Assembly (NCBI GenBank): GCA_034522055.1
Contig: JAXHLS010000002.1
Coordinates: 2,170,001-2,234,000, forward strand
DNA length: 64,000 nucleotides
Source: Gammaproteobacteria bacterium
Lineage (GTDB): Bacteria; Pseudomonadota; Gammaproteobacteria; JAABTG01
Direction: 5' to 3'
Part shown: in pieces, positions 5,343 through 12,588 of the stretch
Numbering within the stretch: the stretch's first letter is position 1
How the letters are laid out: each line of letters starts with the position of its first letter
Translations under genes and position numbers: made by a program
The notes under the pieces: generated by a model
What the model saw: the letters and a program-made list of their open reading frames with translations, nothing else
Databases searched by the model: none
Told to the model about the DNA's origin: nothing

Positions 5343-5378
5343 TGCTTGTCCGGGCACGGGTTAGCCATTTAGCTTGGA

Positions 5379-5591
5379 TGTCGGGATGAATCCCGACCTA
5401 CATTCGTGCCAAAGGAATGGGCGGTGGGGTTGTCGTGTAGGTCGGGCTGTCGGTCGGGCTGTAGGTCGGGCTTCAGCCCGACACCCAACGCTGGCGGGTG
5501 GTACCGCCCCGGCCCGTGGTGTGTGCGATTGGGTTTAATGTCGGGATGAATCCCGACCTACAGCCGTGCCACAGGAATGGACGCTGGGGGT
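5379..5591. repeat. Cluster of REP-like palindromes
   Basis: The 560-bp gene-free stretch before the dihydroorotate dehydrogenase holds two related direct copies of about 52 bp (5379-5430 and 5539-5591), each opening with the perfect palindrome GTCGGGATGAATCCCGAC. Between them is a third unit, inverted, with GTCGGGCTTCAGCCCGAC (5465-5482) and further GGTCGGGCTG repeats. All can fold into stable hairpins. The pattern is that of REP/BIME elements mobilised by RAYT transposases in Gammaproteobacteria; no RAYT gene is in the window. I see no credible gene here. Confidence 0.7.
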
Positions 5592-5809
5592 ATCGTGTCT
5601 TCCGTCGTGCTGCCCCCAATCCTTTGGCCCAACCCCTTGGCGATCTCGCCGAGAGGGGAAAATTTACCCGCAGGTTCCGGGGACGAGCCGGCAGCATAGA
5701 TGCCCGATGATGCCAGGCTGAGGGCCCGGGCCGCCTACGGCATTCCCCGCATCTGGTAGCCGGGTTAGTATCACCGGCAGTCATCGACGAACGACACCGT
5801 GAAGAGGAT

Positions 5810-8712: not shown

Positions 8713-10630
8713 GTGCGTCCGTGGAGGCGCATTTTCTGCACGGTGAGAGTCCGTGTCGGGGTAAGCCAAGGCCCCGTAGTCGAAGGTAACTGCGTCGTCG
8801 CGAGGCGGGGTGGAGAGCAACCGGAGGCGAACTGGCGGTCCGTAGGATGACGAACTCGATTCGGCGGTACGGGACGGCGAGCCCGCTAGGAGAAGGTGAA
8901 GCCTGAAAATCATCGGATGCGCTGGGATTGGCGTGGAAAGCGACATTCGGGTCCCCTCCGTGGTTGGAGACGGAACGCTGGGAAGGAAATGCGAGAGAAG
9001 CGGGGAGACCTGACCGCCGTGGTGACGGTGGGCAGGAGTCAGAGCCTTCGTAGTACTGAACGGTTCTGCTGCGGTCATGGCGAGGTGCTGCGGAAACGCG
9101 GACCCAAGAGTTGGAGGGCGTCCTCCGCCTAAAGCCGTGGGTGGTGCCGGGAAAGCGCGAAGAACAGAAATCGCGCCGAGGGAAGGGAGGCAGGAAGGTG
9201 GATGGGTGAAGTCCGGAGGAGGTGAGCGCGTATGCAAAGGGTCGAGAGTGTCTCGCAAGAGGCTAAGCCAGACTCGTCCAACCCGGTGGAATGGCCGTGG
9301 GTGGACCGCACGATCTGGACGGAGCGCATGTTGGCGGCGCTGGGTAACGGCGTCCAAGGGACGAAGTGGTTCAGTCTGATCGACAAGGTGCATCGCCCCC
9401 AGACCCTGGAACGGGCGTGGCAGGATGTGCGGGCCAACCGGGGTTCAGCGGGGGTGGATGGCCAGAGTGTGCAGCGTTTTGAGGCCCATGCCGAGCGGTA
9501 TCTGGCGGAGTTGGGAGAGGCGCTGGGAATTGGACGGTACCGACCGGATGCGGTGCGTCGGGTGGAGATTCCGAAGGGGACAGGGACGCGTCCCCTGGGC
9601 ATTCCGACGGTGAAGGACCGGATTGTGCAGGCGGCGATGAAGCGGGTGCTCGAGCCGATTTTCGAGCACCAGTTTTTGCCGATGAGTTACGGGTTTCGCC
9701 CGGGTCGCGGGTGCAAGGATGCGCTGCGGGAAGTGGATGGGCTGGTTCGGGAGGGCTACACCCATGTGGTGGATGCCGACCTGGCCCAGTACTTCGACAC
9801 CATCCCGCACGAAGCGTTGATGGCCCGGGTCGAGGACCGGATCAGCGATGGTCGGATCCTCGACCTGCTGCGCGCCTGGTTGCGCCAGGACGTGGTGGCG
9901 GAGATAGCGCGCTGGACGCCGACCCGGGGCTCGCCCCAAGGGGCGGTGATCAGTCCGTTACTCGCGAATCTGTACCTGCACGGGCTGGATGTACACATGA
10001 CCCAGCGCGGCTATCGGATGGTTCGGTATGCTGACGACCTCGTGATCCTGTGTGCCAGTCCGGACGAAGCCCAGGAGGCGCTGCAGGAGTTGCGGCACTG
10101 GGTGGAGGCCAATGGTCTGCAACTGCACCCGGAGAAGACCCGTGTGGGGGATTGCCGGCAGCCCGGGAAGGCTTTGAGTTTCTCGGGTACCGGTTTGAAG
10201 CGGGACGGCGGTGGGTACGCAAGAAGAGCCGCAAGGCCCTTTACGACCGGGTCCGGGCCAAAACCCGGCGCAGTCGTGGGGATTTGCTGGCGCGGATTGT
10301 GGCCGACCTGAACCCGATGCTGCGTGGCTGGTTCGTGTATTTCCAGCACGCGCACCCGTGGACCTTTCCTCGCGTGGACGGTTTTGTCCGACGTCGATTA
10401 CGGGCGCTGTTGCGCAAGCAGCAGAAGCGCCCGGGAGCGGGTCATTGTCAGTCCGACCATCTCCGCTGGCCGAACGCGTTCTTCGCTGCGGCTGGGCTTT
10501 TCACCATGACCGAAGCCCGGACGTTGGCGAGCCAATCCCGATGAGGTAACCACCGACTGGAGAGCCGTGTGCGGGAGAACCGCATGCACGGTTCGGAGGG
10601 CGGGGAGGGTCACTCCTTCCCGACCCCTAT
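8713..10630 (+). mobile_element. Group II intron with reverse transcriptase gene
   Basis: This ribozyme-type retroelement is 1918 bp. It begins with the canonical GTGCG at 8713. Domain V is the hairpin at 10562-10595 (GAGCCGTGTGCGG ... GCATGCACGGTTC), followed by a domain VI stem and an end at CCCCTAT (10630). Joining the flanks, CTCCTA and CATGAAT, restores a sequence collinear with the uninterrupted repeat copy at 12478-12500, which supports these exact boundaries. The encoded reverse transcriptase lies in the usual domain IV position. It interrupts a non-coding repeat, so it breaks no gene. Confidence 0.9.
9232..10544 (+). pseudogene. ltrA: Group II intron reverse transcriptase/maturase, frameshifted
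   Basis: The ATG at 9232 follows a strong Shine-Dalgarno (GGAGGAGGTG). Reverse-transcriptase blocks are visible: RPLGIPTVKDRIVQAAMKRVLEP, YGFRPGRGCKDAL, the catalytic VRYADDLVILC and GLQLHPEKTRVGDC. The frame is then lost at a GGG run (10165-10167). The next frame continues EGFEFLGYRFEAGRRWVRKK and the maturase X domain (NPMLRGWFVYFQ ... LRWPNAFFAAAGLFTMTEA). One extra G would give a 437-residue protein. No HNH endonuclease domain is seen at the C-terminus. As written, the protein would lack its maturase domain. Confidence 0.9.
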
Positions 10631-10689
10631 CATGAATAGCCGAAGCCCCCCCCCGGCCTGCTCCCTTTTTGCGCCTTTCGTGTCTTTCG

Positions 10690-11516
10690 GTGCGCCAGGC
10701 AAAGCCTGGGAAAGGAGGAAAGTAGAATCGAGGAAGGAAACGACTTGAAACCTTTCACTGTGACCCGTCGGGTGTAAGTCCCGAACCGGTAAGGCAGACC
10801 CGCCACCGGAACCGAGTGTTGCGTGGATTGGGGGCGACCCCGTCTGCGAAGCGTACACAGGGGGTGTGCAGGCCGTGTGATAGAGCCTCGAAAGGCGCAA
10901 TGTGGGGCCGACGCTTTCGAAAGGGCGGAAGGCAACAGGGCGCGGACCGAGTGGGTCGGGTCCGTGCTCCCCGCCGGGGTCGGAGAGCAGGGCATGTACA
11001 CAAGGGTCACCCAGGAACCTGGGAGGGCTCATGCGCTCCTTGCGCGTAGTGCGATGCGGGCGTCGCATAAGAAAAGGTCCCGGAACGACCACCCGAGGGA
11101 TGCCGGGCGGGTGGACGCGAAGACGGCACGACGCAAGGTGCCGCCAAGCGAAGGCAACGAAGTGCAGCGGGATGGCGGATGAGCAATCGGAGTCGGCGGA
11201 TAGTACCGATGAGCGTGGGGCACTCACCCGAGAGGACCCACGGGAGGGAAGCGGCCGACCGGTGTAGACAGCTTTTGGAGGGACAGATGACGCAGACATC
11301 GAGCCGCGAGATCATCCCAACGCGACAACGGAAGCGCGCGGAACTGGCGAGCGCAGCCCGGGCAGGTGGGTCATGCCCCTCCGAGGGCCTGTCTTGACCA
11401 GCGGGTACGTGGCGGTACGCCACGTAGCGTTTGCTACATCGAGGAGCCGGATGCCTGTGTGGGCACGTCCGGATCTGTGGGAGCCGCGGGTGAGCAATCA
11501 CCCGTGGCCACCCGAC
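10690..11516 (+). mobile_element. ORF-less (deleted) group II intron
   Basis: This is a second, different intron of 827 bp. It starts GTGCGCCAGGC at 10690 and ends CACCCGAC at 11516. Domain V is at 11444-11476 (GAGCCGGATGCC ... GGCACGTCCGGATC), followed by a domain VI stem (CGCGGGTGAGCAATCACCCG). The flanks TTTCG and TAGTTACGCTTTT join to match the uninterrupted copy at 12539-12557 exactly. There is no reverse transcriptase; only a short stretch after a Shine-Dalgarno near 11280 might be the remnant of one. Such an intron would need a maturase supplied in trans. Confidence 0.85.
11287..11397 (+). pseudogene. Possible remnant of an intron-encoded protein start
   Basis: Within the ORF-less intron an ATG at 11287 follows GGAGGGACAG and reads MTQTSSREIIPTRQRKRAEL before stopping after 36 residues. 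Its place just before domain V matches where a maturase gene would begin, so it may be what an internal deletion left behind. No conserved reverse-transcriptase motif is present, so this is tentative. Confidence 0.3.
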
Positions 11517-11614
11517 TAGTTACGCTTTTCGCTTTTCGATACCGACCCACTATTTTCATCGTCCAGGGTGGCGCGTATTGCCATAATGGCCGACAAGCGT
11601 GATGCGACTATAGA

Positions 11615-11645: not shown

Positions 11646-11873
11646 ATGAAGACGATCATTGCATCTGAGTTCAAGGCCAAATGCCTCAAGCTGATGGACG
11701 ACATCGCCGCGGGTGGTGAGCCCATCGTCGTGACCAAGAACGGCGTCCCGGTGGGACGATTCGTCCCCTATCACGCGAAGCCCCCGACGCTGTTCGGTAT
11801 TCACGAGGGCCGGGTGGAATTCTCGGATGACCTGACGGCGCCGTTGGAAGAGCCCTGGGATGTGGAGGAGTGA
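11646..11873 (+). CDS. Type II antitoxin, Phd/YefM family
   Basis: This 75-residue protein has the Phd/YefM DNA-binding N-terminus, FKAKCLKLMDDIAAGGEPIVVTKNGVPVGRFVP, followed by an acidic C-terminal tail (EFSDDLTAPLEEPWDVEE) of the kind that wraps and blocks a PIN toxin. The stop overlaps the vapC start (GTGA), so translation is coupled. A palindrome at 11615-11630 is a likely autoregulatory site. The pair lies between two copies of a MITE-like repeat, consistent with lateral arrival. Confidence 0.88.
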   Translation: MKTIIASEFKAKCLKLMDDIAAGGEPIVVTKNGVPVGRFVPYHAKPPTLFGIHEGRVEFSDDLTAPLEEPWDVEE

Positions 11874-12272
11874 TCCTACTCGACACCCATGCGCTCTTGT
11901 GGCTCGACAGTGGCAGCAATGAGCTTGGGGCGCGCGCTCGGAAGGTCATCGATGCCGCTTTCGCGGCGGAGCGGTTGGCGGTTTCCGCCATCTCGTTCTG
12001 GGAAGTCACCATGCTTCAGGAGAAGAACAGGCTGTCAATCGCCCAGGATCTCGCGGGATGGCGGCGGGAACTATTGGACTCGGGGCTTGTGGAGTTGCCC
12101 GTGGACGGAGATGTCGGGATCCCTCGCCGGTGCCCTGAGGAATTTCCACGGCGATCCGGCGGACCGGATGATTGTCGCCGCTGCCCTCAGGCACGGTGCG
12201 GAACTGGTGACCGCCGACAGGCGTATCCTGGATTGGAACGGGCGCTTGTTGCGCTACGACGCCCGGCAATAG
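11870..12272 (+). pseudogene. vapC: VapC-type PIN toxin, frameshifted
   Basis: This is a PIN-domain ribonuclease toxin. Frame 1, from the GTG at 11870, gives ILLDTHALLWLD (first catalytic Asp), SAISFWEVTML (catalytic Glu) and SGLVELPVDGDVG. Frame 2 then supplies SLAGALRNFHGDPADRMIVA (third acidic position) and HGAELVTADRRILDW, ending at 12272. Removing one G from the GGG run at 12116-12118 restores an ordinary 133-residue VapC. As written, the unshifted frame would carry an unrelated tail and no active site, so the toxin would be inactive unless the shift is a sequencing error. Confidence 0.85.
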
Positions 12273-12361
12273 AAGTGGGGTACTTGGGATCCGTTACGTA
12301 GGTTGAATCAGGCACGATGGATTTGTCATCTGGGGAATAGGGAATAGGGAATAGGAAAATC

Positions 12362-12557
12362 AAAAGCGGTAACTACGAAAGACGCGAAATACCCGAAAGA
12401 ACAAAGAGATGATGGCGGAAGCGCCACCTGTGGAGCGGCGCCTCGTCGCGATGGGGCTGGGGCAATCGCGACGGGGGTGTCGCTCGTACAGAGCTAATCG
12501 AAGGCCCCTGGCCTCCTCCTTTTTCGCGCCTTTCGCGCCTTTCGTAGTTACGCTTTT
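12362..12557. repeat. MITE-like element copy 2 (intact)
   Basis: This 196-bp element is bounded by inverted repeats of about 27 bp: 12362-12389 and 12531-12557 are reverse complements apart from one mismatch and one extra base. It has no coding capacity. Three GAATAGG heptamers lie directly to its left (12334-12356). It is the uninterrupted reference for copy 1. A further right-end-like piece (CTTTCGTGGTTACGC) is at 12683-12697. The stretch 12273-12736 otherwise holds only the repeats listed next. Confidence 0.78.
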
Positions 12558-12588
12558 CGCTGTTTGCCTTTGACCTCTGAGCCGTACC

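Follow-up and report, generated by a model that had tools for sequence, protein, structure and literature searches.

A compact group II intron without an ORF, located in a dispersed intergenic repeat and probably spread with a reverse transcriptase supplied in trans

How does a group II intron that encodes no reverse transcriptase (RT) come to lie in an intergenic repeat, and did the RT-encoding intron beside it put it there? This question is raised by a locus in a 64,000-nt stretch of DNA, referred to here as the window (C2:2170001-2234000), from the gammaproteobacterial host genome G000 (5.1 Mb, 98% complete). A sequence-only reading of the window had proposed an 827-bp ORF-less group II intron inside an inverted repeat arm, dependent on a maturase in trans and separated by 59 bp from a different, RT-encoding intron, and had suggested that one of the two once mobilised the other. 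We refer to the ORF-less element as intron A, or copy A where it is compared with its relatives, and list the features of the locus in Table 1.

The covariance-model check confirmed, at the level of sequence and predicted fold, that 10690-11516 is a compact, ORF-less group II intron. Rfam RF02005 (group-II-D1D4-6) matched 10775-10989 with 141.4 bits (E 2.8e-40), and domains V and VI are both predicted as hairpins within the terminal 76 bases (fold z -4.4), with an unpaired A in domain VI seven bases before the intron 3′ end. The D5/D6 model RF00029 matched 11442-11516 with 36.3 bits (E 8e-5), just below its gathering score of 40, and the RT-bearing relative of intron A in the same-genus genome G001 scored similarly (37.4 bits). 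The 827-nt element begins with GTGCGCC and ends with CCCGAC, is flanked by ...GTGTCTTTCG on the 5′ side and TAGTTACGCTTTTCGCT on the 3′ side, and contains, as had been proposed, no RT ORF. Just downstream, at 11646-12280 of the window, lie a Phd/YefM-type antitoxin gene and then a gene for a PIN-like toxin that appears frameshifted.

Table 1 Features of the intron A locus (positions within the window)
Feature	Position	Strand	Basis or detail
Neighbouring RT-encoding group II intron	8713..10630	+	RF00029 55 bits at 10560-10630; RF02001 30.8 bits; TIGR04416 323 bits
IBS1 (TCTTTCG), terminal bases of the 5′ exon	10683..10689	+	Pairs with EBS1; kept in nearly all of the 30 listed empty sites
ORF-less group II intron copy A, whole element	10690..11516	+	RF02005 141 bits; D5/D6; filled/empty site comparison; two further genomic copies
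Core of domain I to IV	10775..10989	+	Rfam RF02005 alignment
EBS1 (CGAAAGG)	10918..10924	+	Domain I loop GCCGACGCTT-T-CGAAAGG-GCGGAAGGC; 7/7 pairing with IBS1
RT ORF start remnant	11287..11366	+	ATGACGCAGACATCG...; aligned with the intact L051 RT ORF
RT ORF middle remnant, 50 nt, between the deletions	11366..11415	+	Matches L051:2933-2982; BLAST match 694-726
Remnant of final RT codons and stop	11415..11427	+	GTACGCCACGTAG
Domain V hairpin	11443..11476	+	Apical loop GUGU vs UAAUU in copies B, C and G001
Domain VI hairpin	11478..11514	+	Unpaired A at 11510, candidate branch point
3′ exon section of the target repeat	11517..11535	+	TAGTTACGCTTTTCGCTTT
Sister target-repeat copy, unoccupied	12522..12564	+	Insertion point 12544/12545

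The empty site noted in the sister repeat is present: CTTTCG^TAGTTACGCTTTTCGCT is uninterrupted at about 12540-12561, and the copy at 12522-12564 reads CTTTCG^TAGTTACGC intact across the insertion point. The inverted repeat, by contrast, is clear in the sister element only, where the arms 12356-12398 and 12522-12564 are 77% complementary, whereas the intron-bearing copy has lost most of its left arm. Written around the insertion point, the target repeat is TTTCGCGTCTTTCG^CGGTTACGC. The pattern TTTCGYRGTTACGC occurs at 56 unoccupied sites genome-wide (0 for the reversed-pattern control), and the consensus over 30 fetched target sites is close to CCTTTTCGCGTCATTTCGCGTCTTTCG^CGGTTACGCTTTT; these empty sites and their common consensus indicate that the habitat of intron A is a dispersed intergenic repeat. 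A second dispersed repeat, with the palindrome GTCGGGATTCATCCCGAC, occurs at 5369-5438 and 5529-5598 of the window and at many other sites, often directly downstream of the target repeat.

EBS1 and IBS1 of intron A form 7/7 pairs, including one G-U, and they covary among related introns. In a set of 12 introns, picked by eye because their loop could be read and their boundary was plausible, 69 of 84 positions were paired against a shuffled mean of 39, and 0 of 20000 shuffles were as good; the set includes one intron (L075) with just 2/7 positions paired, and the scripted 5′ ends are approximate for several distant relatives (L068, L069 and others). A stretch at about 10890-10900 offered another EBS candidate (CGAAAGGCGCA, the complement of TGCGCCTTTCG in the exon repeat), which was rejected, since its CGAAA is a conserved part of the Rfam consensus and stays the same when the exon changes.

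The search for full-length relatives carrying an RT succeeded in the same genus, with only a fragment in the host genome itself. In G001, the full-length form (L051:1812-3823) is 94% identical to intron A over positions 1-677 and 726-827, and between the two halves, in domain IV, lies an intact RT ORF (L051:2303-3733) of 476 aa with a TIGR04416 (group_II_RT_mat) match of 346 bits. Intron A is a derivative of this RT-bearing form from which two blocks, of about 441 and about 738 bases, are missing. Two further ORF-less copies in the host genome, B and C, have the two deletion junctions and the 50-nt remnant of the middle in common with intron A, and all three retain parts of the beginning and the end of the RT. 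These identical junctions indicate one deletion origin, with the RT lost once and the deleted form copied afterwards. Such spread after the loss of the RT would need an RT in trans, and the three ORF-less copies thus bear out the dependence on a trans-acting maturase that had been claimed from the window. An intact cognate RT was not found in the host assembly (98% complete), which holds a 31-aa C-terminal scrap only; the next-closest RTs in this genome are about 45% identical to the parental one.

Intron A is, with high probability, a non-autonomous intron, a two-deletion derivative that spread with the RT of a sibling acting in trans and whose parent was lost later. An RT-encoding member of the family lost about 1.2 kb of its RT gene via two deletions in domain IV, and the shortened intron RNA retained the ribozyme and EBS1. 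A full-length sibling would then have supplied the RT/maturase in trans, permitting splicing and reverse splicing into the EBS1-matching intergenic repeat, and the RT-bearing parent would subsequently have disappeared from the host genome. Movement was presumably by retrohoming, with the cognate RT as the probable driver; the parental RT, although lost here, would be the simplest candidate for that role.

The further copies provide a view of how this spread may have proceeded. Copy B (C2:3025847-3026685) is 92% identical to A, and copy C, which extends from C2:3026865 to 3031214 and is split by an insert of ~3.5 kb with a transposase-like gene (DUF4277), is 91% identical to A. In addition, an RT-bearing 3′ intron fragment at C2:1486786-1486887 is 98% identical to A and encodes 31 aa of RT at 84%. 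B and C lie 845 kb from A and their outer flanks beyond the repeat differ, so segmental duplication does not explain the copies. A different DNA-level origin was also considered, in which the three ORF-less copies are dead fossils whose number grew through DNA recombination between repeats, or through gene conversion, rather than through RNA-mediated insertion. Target repeats are plentiful, just about 180 bp separate B from C, and copy A and the RT-bearing fragment have in common the domain V loop GUGU, which is not found in B, C or G001 and which suggests gene conversion or recombination with an RT-bearing copy in the host genome after the deletion. Nevertheless, A, B and C sit in different repeats with different outer flanks, the insertions are exact at the intron ends except for one extra base at the 5′ end of B, and the EBS1/IBS1 pairing has been maintained, all of which makes multiplication by DNA recombination improbable.

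The copies also differ in age or state. In relative-rate tests, copy A had 11 private changes against 42 in B (p about 2e-5) and, in the comparison with C, against 46 (p about 3e-6), whereas A and the RT-bearing copy were equal (11 vs 13 changes). These counts suggest that A is a recent copy from a functional source and that B and C are old and decaying, and the RF02005 scores (A 141, G001 145, C 111, B 100) agree with this, although locally poor assembly of the region that contains B and C may be an alternative to decay. Copy A may still have the capacity to splice. In a small tree, the clade of A, B and C excluding G001 had a support of only 0.86.

Could the intron next door have been the driver? 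The different RT-encoding intron that had been described does lie 59 bp upstream, has an RT and belongs to another family; its RT, however, appears to be frameshifted by one base near 10165 (ORFs 9232-10311 and 10050-10544). Common family membership of the two introns was considered and rejected: the best D1-D4 model for the neighbour is RF02001, at 30.8 bits just below the cut-off of 32, and not RF02005, and its RT and the parental one share about 44% identity. Class C introns insert directly after stem-loops, and the neighbour is inserted directly after one (TAGGAGCG...CGCTCCTA), which suggests that it follows a target rule different from that of intron A. The idea that intron A was mobilised in trans by this neighbour, or by one of its intact relatives at another genomic site, draws on the close spacing within one repeat element, on several other genomic copies of its RT family that are intact (439 aa) and on the relaxed-specificity driver proteins known in T. 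elongatus (PMC2882425). With the different Rfam D1-D4 family, the divergent and, in the adjacent copy, frameshifted RT, the other apparent target rule and a closely matching (94%) RT-bearing parent in the same genus, we consider it very improbable, and the proposed mobilisation by the adjacent intron was not upheld. That the two introns lie so close together is best explained by independent insertions into one intergenic repeat element.

A further candidate is an RT of 578 aa encoded by an intron of the broader RF02005 class, of which two copies (L053:1900-3900 and L052:12780-14800) are 98.8% identical over 2.2 kb, an identity that suggests recent movement. This RT is intact and, at about 45% identity, closer to the parental RT than any other intact one in the host genome, so that it might now support splicing or mobility of intron A. 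The RNAs of the two introns, however, have no detectable nucleotide similarity apart from the covariance model, and RTs usually recognise their own domain IVa; we regard such support as unlikely. The stronger proposition of a driver switch, in which a ~45%-identical RT from a distant intron in the same genome now moves an active copy A into the dispersed repeat, appears quite unlikely, and the parental RT remains our preferred driver. The host genome is altogether very intron-rich, with 36 maturase-domain matches, 24 RF02005 matches above the cut-off and several intron families.

The closest precedent is the TeI3 ORF-less introns of Thermosynechococcus elongatus (Mohr et al. 2010, PMC2882425), which stem from one ORF deletion that left both RT ends and which spread at EBS/IBS-matched sites, thought to be mobilised by the RTs of related introns, as tested in E. 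coli (PMC2882425). The likeness lies in the deletion of the ORF in domain IV, breakpoints identical across copies, remnants of the RT ends, later spread and EBS/IBS-matched sites; intron A, too, is RT-derived with domain IV remnants and exists in several copies with common breakpoints. The TeI3 drivers are related RT-bearing introns, and likewise intron A has an RT-bearing parent. A close RT-bearing driver, which is usual in TeI3-like systems and not strictly defining, is however lacking in G000, and the intact parent is present only in G001. In T. elongatus, 17 copies and active driver RTs occur in the same genome and have been experimentally tested, whereas intron A has three copies, two deletions that spared a piece of the middle, a target in an intergenic repeat at dispersed sites and no intact close RT in its genome.

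Bacterial ORF-less introns are described as rare and as nearly always occurring alongside a related RT-bearing intron in the genome (PMC4424553). Those surveyed by Simon et al. 2008 and reviewed in PMC4424553 resemble intron A in that an RT is thought to act in trans; they nearly always come with a related RT intron, whereas in the genome of intron A the close RT survives only as a C-terminal fragment, along with distant relatives. C.te.I1 of Clostridium tetani is likewise a bacterial ORF-less intron without a close RT in its genome, where no IEP-related gene is present, and it self-splices robustly in vitro (PMC3919590; PMC4424553). Unlike C.te.I1, intron A can be traced to a known close parent and shares its genome with further group II RTs. 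The mechanism is therefore already documented in a few other bacteria, and what is new here is a clear example from another bacterial lineage. Particular to intron A are its double deletion, its target in a dispersed repeat and the disappearance of its close driver. A single genus contains the parent, the deleted child, decayed copies, empty sites and a relic of the lost RT, so that both the specificity and the loss of the driver become testable.

Beyond the host, near-full-length similarity was found in 2 of 369 genomes of the class, namely the host and its same-genus relative. Among plasmids there was no intron similar over the full length (best match 73% over 31% of the query), and the deletion-junction sequence was not found in viral contigs. 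Relatives of intron A occur in >20 places in the draft genome of Halochromatium glycolicum (G370), mostly cut at contig ends, and to judge from these matches the relatives have multiplied strongly in that organism.
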